Virus record (IMG/VR): IMGVR_UViG_3300037493_001629
Coordinates: 1-20,641 of that record
Direction: 5' to 3' (one strand)
DNA from: a virus
Length of the DNA: 20,641 nt
Part shown: piece after piece, positions 10,554 through 20,641 of the stretch
Numbering within the stretch: position 1 is the stretch's first letter
How the letters are laid out: the number at the start of each line of letters is the position of its first letter
Notes under the pieces: generated by a model
What the model saw: only the letters and a program-made list of their open reading frames with translations
Databases searched by the model: none
Told to the model about the DNA's origin: nothing
Program-made: the position numbers and the translations under genes

Positions 10554-13500
10554 ATGGCATTAACATCACCAGGCGTAGAAGTCGTTATTAACGACCAAAG
10601 TCAATATCTTCCGGCAGCACAGGGTTCAGTACCGCTTGTGGTGTTGGCAACAGCACAAAACAAAGCTGATGCCTCAGGAGCGGCTGTTGCTGCTGCAACA
10701 ACCGCTGCTAATGCCGGCAAGTTGTATCAAGTTACAAGTCAGCGAGATTTGGTTAATCTTTACGGTTCACCTTTCTTCTACAACACCACTAACGGAACAC
10801 CTATTCAAGGATATGAACTCAATGAATACGGTTTGTTAGCGGCATACTCAGCATTAGGTATTACTAATCGTGTGTATGTGCTTCGTGCTGACATTGATCT
10901 ATCAAGTTTAGTTGGTAACACTGGACGACCAACTGGCGCGCCAGGTAACGGAACTGCATGGCTTGACACCTCCACAACAACATGGGGTATCTATGAGTTC
11001 AATGCCACTACTGGCACCTTTGCAAATCAGTTACCGATCGTCATCACTGACTCGGCTGATCTGACTGCTGGTGTACCAAACGCAAGTTTAGGTAATATCG
11101 GTGATTTTGCCGTGAATGCCATTCAACTTACTGGGACTCCAATGTCCAGCCCTGAATATTTCTACAAGAATATAAGTAACGCATGGGTTCAAGTTGGCTC
11201 TGCCGACTGGAAATTGTCTTTGCCTACTATACAGAGCACCAGCAGTCCAGTGTCAACATCAGGAACATTTACTATTTCTCTTGGTGCCTACAACGTTGTG
11301 CCTACAGTGCCGCAGGCACTTATCACTGCTGTGGCCACAGATAATTCGGGCATTGCCGGACTAATCAACGCCTTAGGTTGGGCTGACCTTACTGCTGCTG
11401 TTGTAGATAGCAAGTTATGCCTATACACCACAAGTAATTTCATTACGATTACTACAGGGTCGGGAACAGTTCTAGCAGACATTGGTGTCACTGTTGGTGT
11501 ACACTACAGACCATATATGTCGTATGGTACTTCGGCTCAAATGCCGCTATGGCAGACGGGGCAGACAACCCCGAGACCAACTGGCTCAGTCTGGATTAAG
11601 GTTGGCGCAGCTGGTATTGGATTGAATCCTGTAGTATCTGTTTATAATTCAACAGTTGCCGCATGGGTTAACAAAAATGTCTCTCTGGCAACGTCAGATT
11701 GGTTGGCGACTAATGCGCTTGATTCAACTGGCGGAAAAGCAATCCCAGCGGGAACAATATATGGTCAGTATGCATACACTGGGCAAACGGTTCGTTCTCC
11801 GGTTTATCTATGGGAAAGATTTGCCACTGGCCCTACAGTGATTACAGGAGACACAATTCCTGCTTTCGTAGCAGCTGGTTACATGAACGTGTACGTGTCA
11901 ACTCCTAGCGCAAACACTCTATCAGGCCCATTTCAAGTAAACGTCGGCATTACAGCCGCACCAACAGCGGCGACAGCCTTCGTCACTGCTTGGCAGAGCG
12001 CAAACATTCCGTATACTACTGCCAGTGTCACAACTGACGGTAAGTTACAGATAACTCATACTGCCGGCGGCATCATAGAAATGGATGATGCAGTAACTAG
12101 TGGGTTTGTGAATACAGGAACATCAAATGGTTTCATTGCTGCTGCTGGATTTGTAACAGGTACAACCTCAGGATGCAAGTATGGTCAAATGTCAACTGTG
12201 TCTGTCGTGGATGCCGCAACAACTGCGGTCACTGGCATCGGCACTGGTTTAACGGCAAGTGTGACTTATGATGCATCTGGGTTTACTACGTTCAGCATAG
12301 GTGGCACCGGTAGCCCGGCTGGCTATGTAGTTGGTGATAAGGTTAAGATTCTCGGAACTGCATTAGGCGCTGCAACTACAGCGAACGATCTAGTGCTTGT
12401 GGTGGCGGCTCTTAGCGGAGTTGGCGTCCCGTCAGTATTAACTTACTTTACTGGTGTTACTCCTGATATTTACATGACCCAGTTGTCAAACTGGAGAGAG
12501 TTCACATATACTGCAAATGAAGGACAACTCGTTGCTGCTCCTACAAACAACACAAACTGGTTCTATAGTGTCACTGATCAAGTTGACATCATGGTTCAAT
12601 CTGGTGGTGCTTGGGTAGGCTACGGAACAACGAACTTTAGTTCATCTGGTTTCCCTATGGCCGGCGCAAACACAACCGATCCTGCAGGTCCGATTATTGC
12701 TGCTTCTGCTCCAACACTGCAAAGTGATGGAACTGCGCTGGCATACGGTGATCTATGGATTGACACAAGTAATCTGGAAGTTTATCCGGTAATTTCTCGT
12801 TGGGAATTGGTTGATGCTGTTGCACAATGGGTTCTGTTGGATAACACAGACCAAGTTGGTTCAACTGGTGTTCTATTTGCGGATGCTCGTTGGGCAACAT
12901 CGGGTTCAATTAGCCCGACTGATGATCCAATTGTATCCATTGCAACCCTTTTAGATAGCAGTTATACTGACCTTGATGCACCGGAACCAACTATATACCC
13001 AACAGGTATGTTACTATGGAACACTCGTCGCTCAGGTTACAATGTGAAACAGTTCAGAACGAACTACTTCAGTAATGCTAACTTCCCCGGTGATTCGTTA
13101 CCAACGCAAAAAGATGCATGGGTAACGGTCAGTGGTAATCAATCCAATGGCTCTCCATACATGGGTCGTAAGGCTCAACGTGCTATGGTAGTTCAGGCAC
13201 TTAATGCAGTCGTGGCAACTAACACTGATATCCGTGATGAGGACAATGCGTTCAATCTGATCGCTGCTCCAAATTACCCAGAGTTACAGCCAACTATGGT
13301 TGCGTTAAATGCTGATCGCGGAGAAACAGCGTTCATCGTCGGTGACACTCCGATGCGTCTGGCAGATGATGCAACTGCGATTCAAGCATGGGCAACCAAT
13401 GCAGCAGGCGCAACTTCAACAGGTGAAGATGGATGTGTTACTCGTAACACATATCTAGGACTGTTCTATCCGAGTGGTATGACAACTGACCTGTCCGGTA

Positions 13501-14102
13501 ATCTGGTTGCTGTGCCATCGTCACACATGATGCTAAGAACATTACTGCGTAACGATAACATTGCTTATCCGTGGTTGGCGCCAGCTGGCACTCGTCGTGG
13601 TAACATTGAAAATGCCACAAATATCGGCTATCTGAATGGTCAAACTGGTGAATTCCAGACTATTAAGACTCGCGTTGGTATTCGTGATGTGTTATATACG
13701 AACTTCATCAACCCAATGGTGTTCTTCACCGGTGTTGGTTTGTTGAACTACGGTAACAAGTCCAGTTTCAATTCATCAAGTGCGCTTGACAGAGTTAACG
13801 TGGCTCGTTTAGTTGCATACATTCGTCGTCAATTGACATTAGCGGCTCGTCCGTTTGTGTTTGAACCGAATGATGCACTGACTCGCGCACAGATCGCCGG
13901 TGTTGTTCAAACACTCATGGTTGATCTAGTGGCTAAGCGTGGTCTGTATGACTATCTTGTGGTGTGTGATGATTCAAATAACACCCCTGCAAGAATAGAT
14001 CGTAATGAGTTGTGGATTGATGTTGCAGTGGAGCCTGTGAAGGCTGCTGAATTCATCTATATCCCAGTTCGTATTATGAACACAGGTGAATTAAAAGCGT
14101 AA
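10554..14102 (+). CDS. 18: Tail sheath protein (T4 gp18-like), greatly enlarged
   Basis: 1182 residues; T4 gp18 has 659. The N-terminus (MALTSPGVEVVINDQSQY, then VPLVVLATAQNKADASG) and the C-terminal domain (FINPMVFFTGVGLLNYG, DRVNVARLVAYIRRQL, PFVFEPNDALTRAQI, ending PVKAAEFIYIPVRI) are characteristic of contractile sheaths. The sheath polymerises around the tube and contracts on infection; the termini interlock neighbouring subunits. Residues about 121-870 appear to be inserted surface domains. They hold two similar modules (about 235-315 and 440-530) and repeated W-containing strands such as TAWLDTS, SVWIKV and DLWIDTS. A late promoter and AAAGGA precede the start. A C(TTCG)G hairpin follows the stop. 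Confidence 0.95.
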   Translation: MALTSPGVEVVINDQSQYLPAAQGSVPLVVLATAQNKADASGAAVAAATTAANAGKLYQVTSQRDLVNLYGSPFFYNTTNGTPIQGYELNEYGLLAAYSALGITNRVYVLRADIDLSSLVGNTGRPTGAPGNGTAWLDTSTTTWGIYEFNATTGTFANQLPIVITDSADLTAGVPNASLGNIGDFAVNAIQLTGTPMSSPEYFYKNISNAWVQVGSADWKLSLPTIQSTSSPVSTSGTFTISLGAYNVVPTVPQALITAVATDNSGIAGLINALGWADLTAAVVDSKLCLYTTSNFITITTGSGTVLADIGVTVGVHYRPYMSYGTSAQMPLWQTGQTTPRPTGSVWIKVGAAGIGLNPVVSVYNSTVAAWVNKNVSLATSDWLATNALDSTGGKAIPAGTIYGQYAYTGQTVRSPVYLWERFATGPTVITGDTIPAFVAAGYMNVYVSTPSANTLSGPFQVNVGITAAPTAATAFVTAWQSANIPYTTASVTTDGKLQITHTAGGIIEMDDAVTSGFVNTGTSNGFIAAAGFVTGTTSGCKYGQMSTVSVVDAATTAVTGIGTGLTASVTYDASGFTTFSIGGTGSPAGYVVGDKVKILGTALGAATTANDLVLVVAALSGVGVPSVLTYFTGVTPDIYMTQLSNWREFTYTANEGQLVAAPTNNTNWFYSVTDQVDIMVQSGGAWVGYGTTNFSSSGFPMAGANTTDPAGPIIAASAPTLQSDGTALAYGDLWIDTSNLEVYPVISRWELVDAVAQWVLLDNTDQVGSTGVLFADARWATSGSISPTDDPIVSIATLLDSSYTDLDAPEPTIYPTGMLLWNTRRSGYNVKQFRTNYFSNANFPGDSLPTQKDAWVTVSGNQSNGSPYMGRKAQRAMVVQALNAVVATNTDIRDEDNAFNLIAAPNYPELQPTMVALNADRGETAFIVGDTPMRLADDATAIQAWATNAAGATSTGEDGCVTRNTYLGLFYPSGMTTDLSGNLVAVPSSHMMLRTLLRNDNIAYPWLAPAGTRRGNIENATNIGYLNGQTGEFQTIKTRVGIRDVLYTNFINPMVFFTGVGLLNYGNKSSFNSSSALDRVNVARLVAYIRRQLTLAARPFVFEPNDALTRAQIAGVVQTLMVDLVAKRGLYDYLVVCDDSNNTPARIDRNELWIDVAVEPVKAAEFIYIPVRIMNTGELKA

Positions 14103-16317: not shown

Positions 16318-16761
16318 ATGCAAAGAGGTAAGTATGCTCAGGGCTTATTCACCCCCAAGAACCCTGAAAAATACATAGGCAAGGGAACGCCGAAGTATAG
16401 ATCAAGTTGGGAGATGGCCATGATGACCTTCTTTGACAACAATGATCACATACTACACTGGGCCAGCGAATCAATATCGGTTCCATATCGTCACCCATTC
16501 ACCGGTAAAATCTCCAACTACATTCCTGATTTCTTCTGTGTATATGTTGATAACAAGAATAAACAACATGCCGAAATCATTGAGGTGAAACCGAGGTCAC
16601 AAACTATTATGACTGAAGCCAGAAATAAAGGTGATCAGCAACAAGTCATCATCAATACTGCTAAATGGCAAGCCTGTCAGGCATATTGTAAACGAAATGG
16701 CTTCACCTTTCGCATTGTAAACGAGCAGGATTTGTTCGCAAACGGTAGAGGAAAAAGATAA
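16318..16761 (+). CDS. 4: Head completion protein (T4 gp4-like)
   Basis: 147 residues. The pattern YRSSWEMAMMTFFDNN, then W-x-S-E near residue 45, PYRHPFTGKISNYIPDFFCVY, and AEIIEVKPRS is the signature of the gp4 family, which has a TnsA/restriction-endonuclease-like core: E at the start helix, D in YIPDF, and E-V-K in the last strand. In T4, gp4 (with gp2) completes the packaged head and is needed before the tail joins. All three core acidic/basic residues are present, so nuclease-like activity is possible, although this is not demonstrated here. It starts one base after the previous stop without a Shine-Dalgarno. Its stop overlaps a late-promoter motif. Confidence 0.87.
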   Translation: MQRGKYAQGLFTPKNPEKYIGKGTPKYRSSWEMAMMTFFDNNDHILHWASESISVPYRHPFTGKISNYIPDFFCVYVDNKNKQHAEIIEVKPRSQTIMTEARNKGDQQQVIINTAKWQACQAYCKRNGFTFRIVNEQDLFANGRGKR

Positions 16762-16764
16762 ATA
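16757..16764 (+). promoter_or_regulatory. Late promoter at the end of gp4
   Basis: GATAAATA, overlapping the gp4 stop codon (16759-16761). It would give a leader of about 55 bases for the homing endonuclease at 16825, and read on into gp16. Confidence 0.6.
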
Positions 16765-16769
16765 GAAGT

Positions 16770-16820
16770 GTAGTTCGCGGGACGGGAACCCCCAACTACT
16801 CTAACGCCGGGGAGGGCTTC
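16770..16820 (+). other. GC-rich structured leader upstream of the HNH gene
   Basis: GTAGTT (16770-16775) pairs with AACTAC (16794-16799), and inside this GGG pairs with CCC. A second G-rich stretch (GGGGAGGG, 16809-16816) follows and could alternatively pair with the CCCCC at 16789-16793 or serve as a ribosome-binding site nine bases before the ATG. The segment is far more GC-rich than its surroundings. Its role is unknown; control of endonuclease translation is a guess. Confidence 0.45.
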
Positions 16821-16824
16821 AGCA

Positions 16825-17574
16825 ATGATATTTATCAATAACAAGTATACCAAATGGTATAACGCGATAATAACTCGCGCATCAACGCGAGAAAATTCTG
16901 GTTATACAGAGAAACATCACATTATACCGTTATCATTATCGGGTAACAATAAGAAGGATAATATAGTTATTCTAACACCCAGGGAACATTTTATATGCCA
17001 CTTACTTCTTACAAAAATGACAACTGGTAATGGTATTTACAAAATGAAATATGCGCTTTCTATGATAGTAAATATCAACCACATAGGAGGTGGAAGATAC
17101 ACACCAACGGGCCGTACCTATTCAATGGCCAAGCGATTACAAAAAGAAGCAATAATTGACTACTGGACAGAAGATAAAAGAAAAGCACATGCAGAGTTGG
17201 TTAGAAAAAAACAAAAACCTCGCTCTCAGGAAGGTAACGCAAGCATGATTCAATATCAAAAAACCAAGACTTGGACAGAGAAGGCTTTGCTCAACCGCAC
17301 TAATATTGTTAAAAAATCTGCGGAAGCTAGGACTGGGGTGCCGTTATCACCTGATCATAAAGCGAAGATAGCTGCCGCGGCCCATATGCGAAAATTGAAA
17401 TTTATTGATGAAAATATCTTATCAATTGAGTTAGCATTTGATTTAGAAAAAAATAAGGTGAATCGTAATCAGATTTCTAAACTAACTGGATTGTCATGGG
17501 ATAGAGTAGACTGGATACTATCGTCCAATAGAAACATTATTACCGAACATTTGAAACCGATAAATAGGGTATGA
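16825..17574 (+). CDS. HNH homing endonuclease with NUMOD3-like DNA-binding motif
   Basis: 249 residues. Near the N-terminus, TEKHHIIPLSLSGNNKKDNIVILTPREHFICHLLL (split by strand and loop) is a textbook HNH core, with paired histidines at about 32-33, asparagines in GNN...DN, and a final H in REHFICH. The segment TGVPLSPDHKAKIAAAAH (about 170-190) matches the NUMOD3 motif of phage homing endonucleases that bind DNA in tandem. A last helix-turn-helix-like part (NRNQISKLTGLSWDRVDWIL) may add recognition. It lies between gp4 and gp16, and its TGA overlaps the gp16 ATG. It is richer in A/T and Lys/Asn than the neighbours, which fits recent arrival. A late promoter precedes it. Confidence 0.88.
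   Translation: MIFINNKYTKWYNAIITRASTRENSGYTEKHHIIPLSLSGNNKKDNIVILTPREHFICHLLLTKMTTGNGIYKMKYALSMIVNINHIGGGRYTPTGRTYSMAKRLQKEAIIDYWTEDKRKAHAELVRKKQKPRSQEGNASMIQYQKTKTWTEKALLNRTNIVKKSAEARTGVPLSPDHKAKIAAAAHMRKLKFIDENILSIELAFDLEKNKVNRNQISKLTGLSWDRVDWILSSNRNIITEHLKPINRV
17559..17566 (+). promoter_or_regulatory. Late-promoter motif inside the end of the HNH gene, before gp16
   Basis: GATAAATA lies in the last codons of the HNH gene, only four bases from the gp16 ATG. A T4-spaced start would fall on or within the ATG. It may be the original gp16 control region retained at the insertion junction. Confidence 0.45.
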
Positions 17575-18072: not shown

Positions 18073-18687
18073 ATGATCAGCCTAAAACAATACATCGTGG
18101 AAAGCGTCAGGTCGTATAATTATACGATCAAGATCGCCGGAGATGTCGATAAGAACTTCATTGAGATGTTCAGATACAATCTGAATAAGTTCGATCCAAT
18201 CTCCATTGGTGATCCAACTACCACCCCGATTCAAAAGGATCCGTATGGTTTCCCGGGAGTGACAAATCAACCCGTGACAATTATCAAAGCCGAGTTCAGG
18301 TATCCTGCTACCGAGCCGATGATACAACAGATTGCCATGTTACTAGGACACAACATCAATCTGGTCAGAGTAGTCACATCTGACTTTGATGACAGCATCA
18401 ACTCTGAGGCAGAGGGATATGCAAATCAAGCAGATCACAATCCATTGTTGAACCATGCTGAGTTGGAAGACAGCGGCAAAGAGGCTTCAAAAGAATACGG
18501 AGATTCATATCTTAGTTCCATCAAGAAACAATCTGAAGGATCAAAGATTGACATTCCATATGCAGGTAAAAAGACACCAGATGCTTTTGATCCATTCAAA
18601 CAACCTGTAATGGACAAATTGGGCATTAATAGCCCGATGAGTAAGCATACACAACCAGCAAGGCCTGCGACAGGCGCATCCAAATAA
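18073..18687 (+). CDS. Putative virion (internal head?) protein with capsid-targeting-like N-terminus
   Basis: 204 residues from the ATG at 18073, which follows AGGA with good spacing; the ATG at 18037 overlaps gp16 and lies upstream of the predicted late start. The first residues (MISLKQYIVES) resemble the capsid-targeting sequence of T4 internal head proteins (MKTYQEFIAE), which ends at a prohead-protease site, (L/I)-x-E; here I-V-E. The body has YTIKIAGDVDKNFIEMF, PIQKDPYGFPGV and AEFRYPATEPMIQQIAMLLG, a pattern I recall from T4-like marine phages as an unassigned protein. The C-terminus (from about 135) is polar and disordered. Export to the prohead is inference from the N-terminus and late context. 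Confidence 0.72.
   Translation: MISLKQYIVESVRSYNYTIKIAGDVDKNFIEMFRYNLNKFDPISIGDPTTTPIQKDPYGFPGVTNQPVTIIKAEFRYPATEPMIQQIAMLLGHNINLVRVVTSDFDDSINSEAEGYANQADHNPLLNHAELEDSGKEASKEYGDSYLSSIKKQSEGSKIDIPYAGKKTPDAFDPFKQPVMDKLGINSPMSKHTQPARPATGASK
18112..18127. repeat. Perfect 16-bp palindrome inside a coding region
   Basis: TCGTATAATTATACGA is its own reverse complement and contains TATAAT on each strand. No -35 box lies at a proper distance on the plus strand. It encodes residues S-Y-N-Y-T of the gene at 18073. It may be chance or a protein-binding site. Confidence 0.4.
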
Positions 18688-18695
18688 GGAAATAT

Positions 18696-20641
18696 ATGAA
18701 CATTTTAGACATGATGAACAAACTAACTGCGCTTTCGCAACCTATCGTTGAAGCGAAAGAAGAAAAGACAACTCATAAGGGTGGTACTGCCACTACTGAT
18801 GAAAAAGGCACCAAGCACAAGGGCAAATACGGCACTGCATTTCAAGGTGACGAAGATAATGATAAGACGGATGACTACGGCAAGAAGAAGAAAGCAAAGC
18901 CAGCCGTTGCTGCTCCTGCTGCTGAAAAGCGTGGTCGTGGTCGTCCTAAGAAAGGCGCCGACATTGAAGGCAACGTGATGAAGCCTGACTTCTCGGCATT
19001 TGGTGCCAAGAAGGATGTCAAACTGAAGCCATGGGACAAGAAGAAAACAACGAAGCACTCGTTGAAAGACTGGATTGAGCATGCCGAAGCATCGTTGAAC
19101 GAAGGTGATCAGTATACAACTACTCCATTGCCAGGTGCCACTGCCATCAAGAATGCCCAAGGCAAGCAAGTCGCCACAGCGTCAACTCCTCAGGCGGCAG
19201 CAATGATGACCAAGGGTGACATTACCATTACTGATCCGACTAAGCAACTGAAAGAAGTTGAGAAGAATCACATGGGTGAAACACAATATCATGGTTACTA
19301 CAAATGGAAAGTGGCATGCCGTAAAGCAGGTGCAGTTGAGTTCGTAGGTGACCGCGACATTGACGAAGGACATGACTCCCGTGGTAAAGCAGTTGGCGAA
19401 TGGGACGGCGTAGTAGGTTCAGTGTACGGTGACGCACACAAGCAAAAACCTACTGTCGGACAAATGGCAGAGGCAAAGAAAGCAAGGCCAGACTTCCTCG
19501 ACAAAGACAAAGACGGCAACAAGAAAGAACCGTTCAAGAAGGCCGTGAAGGACTCCGGTAAGAAGGTTGAAGAAGCAAAGAAAGCAAAGCCAGACTTCCT
19601 TGACAAAGACAAAGACGGCAACAAGAAAGAACCGTTCAAGAAGGCTGTAAAAGATACAAAGAAGAAGCCAGTAGAAGAAGGCAAGATGAAGGACCTATCT
19701 ATGGACTTGGGTAACAAGAAAGATAGTTTACCTGATGCAGAATTCAAGAAGAAATACGGAAAGAGCAAGGCTGATATGACTAAGGACACAAAACAGGATC
19801 CGAAGAAGCCGGTGAGCAAGATCAAAGAGAGTATTCTCCGTGAATCTCACGACACAATGAAGCACATCATCAGCAAGTTCAAGCACGAAGTCAGAAACTT
19901 TGTAGCCGGAGAAGAATTAGATCAGGATCTGTATGATGCGCTGTATGATTACTATTGTGACATGGGCGAAATGCCTTATGGAACGATGAAGGCACGTGAC
20001 GGTGATCCATTCGAATGGGTAATGCAGAAATTTAACGACGATGTTCAAGACCACGATGTTCCTGTTGATGAATCAACCAACCCAATGATTGAGATTCCGG
20101 CGATTACCCGCAAGTATCAAGGTTCAAACGGAGAAAAACGTCATCCTATGACATTAGATCAAGTTGGTCGTAATGATAGTATGAGTCATCTGCCTAATCT
20201 CAAAGCAGCAGGTGATAGACTTGCCACCGCAAGCCCATGGGATGCTGCACCAGTTGCTAATGTTCAGTTTGAAGGATGGGCAAAAGAACTTGACAATCTG
20301 TTAGCAGAAGGTATGAATGTCACAGCAAACACCGGTCTCGGTGATGGACCCGACTCAGTTACTATTTCTGCAACTGACGAAGATGCACAACATCTGTTAG
20401 CAATCGTCAAGTCAGCTGGTCTCGGTATGTTTGCCGGTGACGCCCAAGCAGACCAAGAGGGTTCTCCACAGATGTCCATTCAGTCTCAGAATAATCCTGA
20501 AGCAGACATTGACGTAGTTGACGACCACGATGATATGCTCGGTCTCATTCGCAAGATGACCGGGCAAGGTGGTGGACAACCCGGCACTGCTGAAGTTGAA
20601 GTTGATGAAGGCGGATGCCAAGCATGTGAATCTGGCTCTTG
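18696..20641 (+). CDS. Large lysine-rich protein with AT-hook and repeats (3' end outside window)
   Basis: At least 648 residues; the frame is open to the last base. The ATG at 18696 follows AAGGA. The N-terminus (MNILDMMNKL...QPIVEA) carries an I-V-E/A prohead-protease-like site at residue 19. A basic region contains an AT-hook core (RGRGRPKK, 79-86), which binds the minor groove of A/T-rich DNA. Two 34-residue-spaced repeats (PDFLDKDKDGNKKEPFKKA at about 264-282 and 298-316) have a DxDxDG loop that could bind calcium. Further (L/I)-x-E-(G/S) sites occur at LNE 134, IDE 222, IKE 376, LRE 381 and LAE 536. The last part is acidic. A DNA-associated internal head or scaffold-type protein processed during maturation is inferred; no direct homologue is recognised. 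Confidence 0.8.
   Translation, partial: MNILDMMNKLTALSQPIVEAKEEKTTHKGGTATTDEKGTKHKGKYGTAFQGDEDNDKTDDYGKKKKAKPAVAAPAAEKRGRGRPKKGADIEGNVMKPDFSAFGAKKDVKLKPWDKKKTTKHSLKDWIEHAEASLNEGDQYTTTPLPGATAIKNAQGKQVATASTPQAAAMMTKGDITITDPTKQLKEVEKNHMGETQYHGYYKWKVACRKAGAVEFVGDRDIDEGHDSRGKAVGEWDGVVGSVYGDAHKQKPTVGQMAEAKKARPDFLDKDKDGNKKEPFKKAVKDSGKKVEEAKKAKPDFLDKDKDGNKKEPFKKAVKDTKKKPVEEGKMKDLSMDLGNKKDSLPDAEFKKKYGKSKADMTKDTKQDPKKPVSKIKESILRESHDTMKHIISKFKHEVRNFVAGEELDQDLYDALYDYYCDMGEMPYGTMKARDGDPFEWVMQKFNDDVQDHDVPVDESTNPMIEIPAITRKYQGSNGEKRHPMTLDQVGRNDSMSHLPNLKAAGDRLATASPWDAAPVANVQFEGWAKELDNLLAEGMNVTANTGLGDGPDSVTISATDEDAQHLLAIVKSAGLGMFAGDAQADQEGSPQMSIQSQNNPEADIDVVDDHDDMLGLIRKMTGQGGGQPGTAEVEVDEGGCQACESGS
19473..19652 (+). 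repeat. Tandem repeat, two copies with a 102-base period
   Basis: A near-identical block of about 78 bases starts at 19473 and again at 19575, with only a few changes, mostly silent. It encodes AKKA(R/K)PDFLDKDKDG and the following KEPFKKAVKD. The high DNA identity points to recent duplication. Confidence 0.85.

Follow-up and report, generated by a model that had tools for sequence, protein, structure and literature searches.

Predicted prohead-core proteins with T4-type targeting leaders in a fragment of a T4-related myovirus: a small internal head protein and a candidate cassette polyprotein

What do two adjacent genes at the end of the IMG/VR virus record IMGVR_UViG_3300037493_001629 encode, when both of their products begin with what looks like a T4 capsid-targeting sequence? 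The window, meaning the whole stretch of 20,641 bases that was analysed, has the gene order of a T4-related myovirus and closes with the two genes in question, P1 and P2, the latter running off the end of the fragment. In uncultivated large phages, nearly every head-internal protein carries the annotation "unknown". From sequence comparison and structural modelling, we consider it probable that P1 is an internal head protein like the internal proteins (IPs) of T4 and that P2 is a scaffold-associated core polyprotein, both being cut by a prohead protease of the S77 family.

As the first-pass annotation had read them, both proteins carry a leader ending in I-V-E followed by S or A, namely MISLKQYIVE↓S in P1 and MNILDMMNKLTALSQPIVE↓A in P2 (the arrow marks the predicted cut). 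Judged by its conservation, the P1 leader is not a product of chance, because it is kept in all 80 relatives that were read (IMG/VR holds 275 places encoding one) and because S3, L4, I8, E10 and S11 are invariant among 50 distinct sequences. The pattern in these is M-(K/R/I/L)-S-L-(K/R)-x-(Y/F)-I-x-E-S, with Y or F at position 7 and position 9 free (T, V, M or A). Genetic work on T4 IPIII has shown that targeting acts mainly via residues 4 and 7 and processing via residues 8 and 10 (PMC9026906), and T4 IPII and IPIII both begin with MKTYQEFIAE↓A. A position-by-position match of the P1 leader to the T4 capsid-targeting sequence is supported by this comparison. A signal-peptide reading of the P1 and P2 leaders was rejected by inspection, as they are without a hydrophobic core and have polar or charged residues throughout.

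P1 is homologous to gp282 of the Pseudomonas phage PA5oct (28% identity over 174 columns, BLASTP E=3e-11) and to Atu_ph07 gp113. Querying IMG/VR with these two homologues gave no additional relatives, P1 was not found in GTDB genomes, and a profile comparison of P1 with PDB sequences gave nothing significant. The AlphaFold2 model of P1 (mean predicted local distance difference test score, pLDDT, 62.7, and mostly 70-80 in the core) has a helix at residues 4-11 and then, from about residue 14, a ferredoxin-like domain with a b-a-b-b-a-b arrangement, so that the folded part would start directly past the predicted cut. Its best VIA-align match is ribosomal protein S6 (Z 9.0, 86 amino acids, 2.7 A); in this model, the likeness to S6 and to ACT-like domains is one of a common fold and implies no function. 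The proteins of at least 60 amino acids (aa) in the 348,701-bp relative G001 (n=356) were ranked by their excess of [LIVMF]xE[AGS] sites over shuffles of the same protein, and since P1 is just 98th, it is not a multi-site protein and can be expected to shed the 10-residue leader alone. The start annotated for Atu_ph07 gp113, at 14088, omits the conserved leader MKTLQDYLTESKKCYTYHVKF, which begins MKTLQDYLTE↓S and lies 5' of that start within a longer open reading frame (ORF) from 14001 (L002:14001-14756); the leader is therefore invisible to virion mass spectrometry (MS) searches that use the short version.

P2 is truncated in the window and complete in contig L003 (646 of 648 residues identical). 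In most relatives its leader reads MDFKSLLSQLDQLNE↓A or similar, is 15-19 aa long and ends in hydrophobic-x-E↓A. Beyond the leader, at least five further (L/I)-x-E-(G/S) sites had been claimed, and there are exactly five, LNE↓G at 136, IDE↓G at 224, IKE↓S at 378, LRE↓S at 383 and LAE↓G at 538; with the wider motif [LIVMF]xE↓[AGS], which permits M, V or F at P3 and A at P1', the total within the fragment is 11. The pattern [LI]xE[SAG] occurs six times, compared with 0.8 +/- 0.8 in shuffles of P2 itself. In the G001 ranking, the scaffold comes first (15 sites vs. 2.6 expected), P2 second (14 vs. 2.8; z 6.4 over composition-matched shuffles) and a 631-aa protein third, followed by the protease and a 293-aa leader-bearing protein. 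The same ranking applied to T4 as a control (130 kb, n=187) places gp22 first, gp21 second and gp23 fifth, and in PA5oct the signal is weaker, with the scaffold fifth.

The end of the chain is a further feature that P2 has in common with the scaffold, an (L/I)(A/S)G(I/L)-type tail. In full-length P2s the last residues are (W/F)xxL(A/S)G(I/L/F)(K), and of the 363 G001 proteins only four finish with the motif [LIVMFWY]x1-3[LIVMF][AS]G[ILVMF][KRN]0-3: the scaffold (..VIDIKRLAGL), P2 (..LLTDWRKLSGIK), the 631-aa protein (..DDLARILNIAGIKK) and one protein of 166 aa. The first three are exactly the top three by site enrichment. The scaffolds of PA5oct and of the relative G005 end in ..VEELRRLAGIK and ..VIDLKRLAGL, respectively, while T4 gp22 has no such tail. 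The tail may dock to the shell or the core. The 631-aa protein (G001 12088-13983, minus strand; L117:12091-13983) has 12 protease-type sites in addition to its scaffold-like tail and is homologous to the MS-detected PA5oct gp278, and it is likely a third core protein.

Between its leader and its tail, P2 has the look of a string of exchangeable cassettes. The DxDxDG repeats that had been noticed earlier, at aa 269 and 303, lie inside a 102-bp tandem duplication (19469-19667), which is one cassette present twice, with cuts predicted at MAE↓A, VEE↓A and VEE↓G (aa 259, 293 and 328). A canonical EF-hand was ruled out for them because the loop has a non-acidic residue at position 12. The difference between the P2 of the fragment and that of contig L004 consists of entire modules, with PVKE↓G and GVAE↓G at their ends. 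Among 112 distinct P2 sequences, 254 indels of at least 25 aa with conserved flanks form 20 independent clusters of inserted sequence (12 in an earlier set). Counting an indel end as at a site when it lies within one residue of an [LIVMF]xE cut, both ends are at sites in six of the 20 clusters (0.20 expected under random placement, p=0.001), as are 13 of the 40 single ends (3.8 expected, p=0.001), and the controls [LIVMF]xD, [LIVMF]xK[AGS] and [DKNQ]xE[AGS] show no enrichment. Across related P2s, the cassette seams coincide with predicted protease sites. Because each cassette is bounded by such sites, cassettes could be gained, lost or duplicated singly without disturbing the rest, and related P2s show such a pattern. 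The pattern would be a clear example of protease sites marking the seams of module exchange in protein evolution.

The PDFLDLDKDGNKKEPMKKA cassette recurs in gp280 of the cyanophage S-SCSM1, an annotated virion protein of a phage whose virion proteome has been determined by MS (PMC9602691). In another cultured phage, Caulobacter phage Cr30, gp064 (L149:1259-3307) is built from a number of LDEISKxTLGSYIKKAS repeats, separated by sites of the xNES/xEES type. Our searches of the open-access literature turned up no account of cassette polyproteins delimited by protease sites in phage heads. It is tempting, yet in our view rather doubtful, to assign P2 to a wider class of such polyproteins, in which prohead-protease sites join short peptides or mini-domains, phages exchange these by recombination at the sites, and the exchangeable pieces act early in the infection. 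Members of such a class would be packaged via a scaffold-like tail, freed in the head and delivered with the DNA to the next host.

The charge and motif content of P2 agrees with its earlier description in part. The strongly basic region is real at aa ~61-120 and 241-360, to which the basic stretches are limited, but the complete 821-aa version in L003 has a net charge of -57 because of its E-rich C-terminal part. Of the predicted fragments of that version, 20-136 and 260-378 are basic; past 383 they become increasingly acidic (-49 for 639-807), and a neutral 14-residue tail follows MKE↓S. For a C-terminal cut there is a precedent in T4 Alt, at LTE-619 (PMC5694885). The proposed AT-hook has its RGRGRPKK core in place, and a [KR]GRP core recurs at roughly the same position in most relatives, but its Pfam AT_hook score of 11.7 bits is under the cut-off of 17.4; as read from the sequence, it is a short motif only. 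P2 is the positional homologue of PA5oct gp281, and the homology extends over one segment, W-x-x-AC...GDxDI...GEWDG. A tblastn search of cultured phages with the GEWDG segment returned a single chance-level match (E=2), and with whole P2 the DxDxDG cassette alone was matched (E 0.3-1). An AlphaFold2 model of the conserved C-terminal segment was uninformative (mean pLDDT 54.4) and was left unused.

Could these proteins meet a protease of the right kind? The first-pass annotation had named the lack of a gp21 homologue as a ground for refuting its reading, and as far as relatives go it is not refuted on this count. Peptidase_S77 is absent from the window, which says little because the window is just 20 kb, but it is present in four relatives, G001, G005 (174 kb), PA5oct and Atu_ph07 (E 2e-22 to 4e-29). 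The G001 gene order runs from the portal (phrog_213) through a gp68-position protein to the protease (phrog_207), and on to a scaffold-position protein (phrog_10922) and the major capsid protein (phrog_138); P2 has no gp22 family match, and the scaffold slot between protease and capsid genes is taken by the phrog_10922 protein. As for the virion itself, the records of PA5oct gp282 and gp281 note detection by electrospray ionization tandem MS at the level of the virion, not of head or tail, and gp330, in the scaffold position, carries no MS note. The suggestion that P1 and P2 are internal head proteins is supported in part, by the T4-like leader of P1 and the presence of PA5oct homologues in virions, while P2 looks more like a scaffold or core protein than like an IP because of its scaffold-like C-terminal tail and its cassette architecture.

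Taken together, P1 and P2 would be late-expressed head proteins in a large myovirus related to T4, drawn into the prohead core by T4-type targeting peptides and processed inside the prohead by the gp21/S77 protease found in relatives. P1 would shed its leader and remain as a small ferredoxin-like internal protein. P2 would be laid out as a targeting peptide, mostly basic cassettes that each end in a protease site, and an acidic C-terminal half; its final peptide, which in L003 reads MKE↓STDLLKDWVKLSGL, resembles the C-terminal tail of the scaffold. After assembly of the shell, the protease would cleave P2 into peptides, of which the acidic parts, along with the leaders, would probably exit, and the basic AT-hook-bearing pieces may remain with the DNA.

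Several observations weigh against this interpretation. PA5oct gp281 has few protease sites, and PA5oct gp282 starts with MKSFRDYYDAS, which keeps the aromatics at positions 4 and 7 and has lost the cleavage residues 8 and 10; by the T4 data it should therefore be targeted but unprocessed, and it is still a virion protein. In PA5oct, leaders and MS-detected proteins are weakly associated (p=0.06). Among the indel controls, plain [LIVMF]xK shows a mild excess at double ends (2 vs. 0.21 expected, p=0.017) and none at single ends. No Peptidase_S77 turned up in seven further partial records, among them the two closest to the window, G002 (142 kb) and G003 (121 kb), and also G009 (176 kb), these three all being fragments. 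In addition, the motif definitions were partly chosen after viewing the sequences, informed by T4, and the ORF caller was crude, including in its choice of starts.

P1 and P2 might instead be ordinary internal or core head proteins with a leader, the internal sites of P2 remaining mostly uncut and its cassettes reflecting the fast evolution of a disordered, charged protein. P2 is indeed disordered-looking, of low complexity and rapidly evolving, its PA5oct homologue is in virions despite having few sites, and in 14 of the 20 indel clusters at least one end lies away from a site. We nevertheless regard this as unlikely, given the enrichment of sites over composition-matched shuffles and the finding that indel ends match hydrophobic-x-E and not the D- or polar-x-E controls. 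Alternatively, P2 could be purely a second scaffold that is wholly degraded and leaves the head, with nothing kept with the DNA or injected, just as T4 gp22 is degraded (PMC5694885); its scaffold-type tail and a site density next to that of the scaffold are what one would expect of such a protein. That account seems to us quite improbable, because enough PA5oct gp281 is retained for detection by MS, whereas the scaffold-position gp330 has no such note, and because the AT-hook core and basic cassettes are maintained across relatives. A location among tail, head-closure and (in PA5oct) terminase genes could also point to neck, tail or packaging proteins whose leader similarity is coincidental, but with E10 and S11 invariant in 50 distinct sequences, leader positions that fit the function mapped in T4, and the scaffold's tail on P2, there is very little to recommend it.

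The interpretation of P1 as an IP-like protein and P2 as a core polyprotein also places them among known systems. P1 resembles the gp21-cut T4 IPI, IPII and IPIII in leader length and residue pattern, in its small mature protein and in predicted late expression, but differs in having a ferredoxin-like domain with a disordered tail and no IP family match; P2 is far larger than the IPs and multi-site. Among the T4 scaffold and core proteins gp22, gp67 and gp68, P2 recalls gp22 in its many (L/I)xE sites and gp67 in its acidic part, and within its own clade it has the C-terminal tail of the scaffold; it differs in its AT-hook core and interchangeable basic cassettes, and no homology to gp22 was detected, a separate scaffold occupying the gp22 position. 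Inner-head and ejection proteins of phiKZ and SPN3US likewise receive several cuts each from S77-related proteases (PMC5694885, PMC10052503), but theirs are long propeptides with folded mature parts, in contrast to the T4-short leader of P2 and its body of repeated and exchanged cassettes. PHROG and Pfam gave no phiKZ-type virion match for P1 or P2, whose leaders are 10-19 aa (vs. >70), with no direct phiKZ comparison run. S-SCSM1 gp280, Cr30 gp064 and S-SKS1 SWZG_00082 share with P2 the PDFLDLDKDGNKKEPMKKA or LDEISKxTLGSYIKKAS cassettes and xE[AGS] sites in or between repeats; the order and set of cassettes differ, with no recognisable end-to-end homology, and none of the three has an assigned function.

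Table 1. Positions of the predicted features in the window.
Feature	Position	Strand	Remarks
157-aa protein, helical-looking, upstream of P1	17571-18044		phrog_16202 (function unassigned); PA5oct gp283 homologue
Box TGATAAATA, T4-late-promoter-like, upstream of P1	18045..18053	+	cf. T4 late -10 consensus TATAAATA
P1, 204 aa, predicted to be an internal head protein; capsid-targeting sequence at N-terminus	18073..18687	+	
P1 leader MISLKQYIVE, predicted cut after E10	18073..18102	+	E10 codon 18100-18102; starts MISLKQYIVE↓SVRS
P1 mature domain, aa ~13-108, ferredoxin-like fold	18109..18396	+	AlphaFold2
P2, predicted prohead-core polyprotein	18696..20641	+	648 of ~821 aa; open at fragment end
P2 leader MNILDMMNKLTALSQPIVE, predicted cut after E19	18696..18752	+	site IVE↓A, codon 18750-18752; then AKEE
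AT-hook core RGRGRPKK, aa 79-86	18930..18953	+	in basic stretch aa 61-120, net +14
Conserved GYYKWKVACRK...GEWDG segment, common to PA5oct gp281	19293..19409	+	BLASTP 35%, 69 aa, E=2e-6
Cassette copy 1: AKKARPDFLDKDKDGNKKEPFKKAVKDSGKKVEE	19473..19574	+	bounded by MAE↓A and VEE↓A
Cassette copy 2: AKKAKPDFLDKDKDGNKKEPFKKAVKDTKKKPVEE	19575..19679	+	between VEE↓A and VEE↓G; S-SCSM1 gp280 has a related sequence
Conserved segment FEGWAKELDNLLAE↓GMNVT...VVDDHDDMLGLIRKMTG	20268..20564	+	aligned across seven relatives

The window begins with a gp15-like tail-sheath stabiliser, a head-tail adaptor, a dNMP kinase and the tail sheath, and continues with two tail-tube-like proteins, head closure, an HNH gene and the 157-aa protein before P1 and P2. 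PA5oct has the same order, with the large terminase following gp282 and gp281; in the fragment's own clade a long fibre-like gene follows P2 instead, and the terminase is located elsewhere. The 157-aa protein is 37% identical to PA5oct gp283 (BLASTP E=3e-30) and is possibly a candidate small terminase subunit, since in PA5oct it precedes P1, P2 and the terminase. Each of the 15 other IMG/VR relatives that were inspected has a GATAAATA box ahead of P1, as does PA5oct, and we infer that the TGATAAATA box of the window is the promoter of P1. Genome-wide in G001, the association between leaders and a T4-like late promoter box is not significant (p=0.18), and because the MS link in PA5oct is not significant either, a leader by itself predicts packaging poorly beyond P1 and P2. 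In combination, a leader of defined positions, a protease motif and the common C-terminal tail make it feasible to predict head-packed proteins from sequence alone, among them potentially injected enzymes.

Other leader-bearing proteins came to light in G001 and S-SCSM1. A 317-aa protein of G001 (284983-285936; L131:4986-5936, minus strand) has the leader MRAIELYE↓SAA, sigma-70 region 4 (Pfam E 8e-19) and a HELTH metallopeptidase-like motif. Provided that it is packaged, this protein would be a candidate for injection as a transcription factor. In another (G001 261485-262810; L130:1485-2807, plus strand), the leader MRFTEIITE↓STD comes before a region that weakly matches the T4 RegB endoribonuclease (E 0.0085, below cut-off), after which come MKIEELITE↓GEN, which again resembles a leader, and a basic DUF6321 module. 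The products of G001 16385-17154, 203586-205708 and 286863-287489 (tiles L117, L127 and L131) have MRA(I/K/T)(E/H)F(V/I/L)xE-type leaders and belong to no known family, and are candidate head cargo. In S-SCSM1, the NMN adenylyltransferase gp281 (L147:3741-4970), which has been found in virions by MS (PMC9602691), starts with MKSFLQFLKE↓AAE, and this T4-like targeting leader would explain its presence in the particle.

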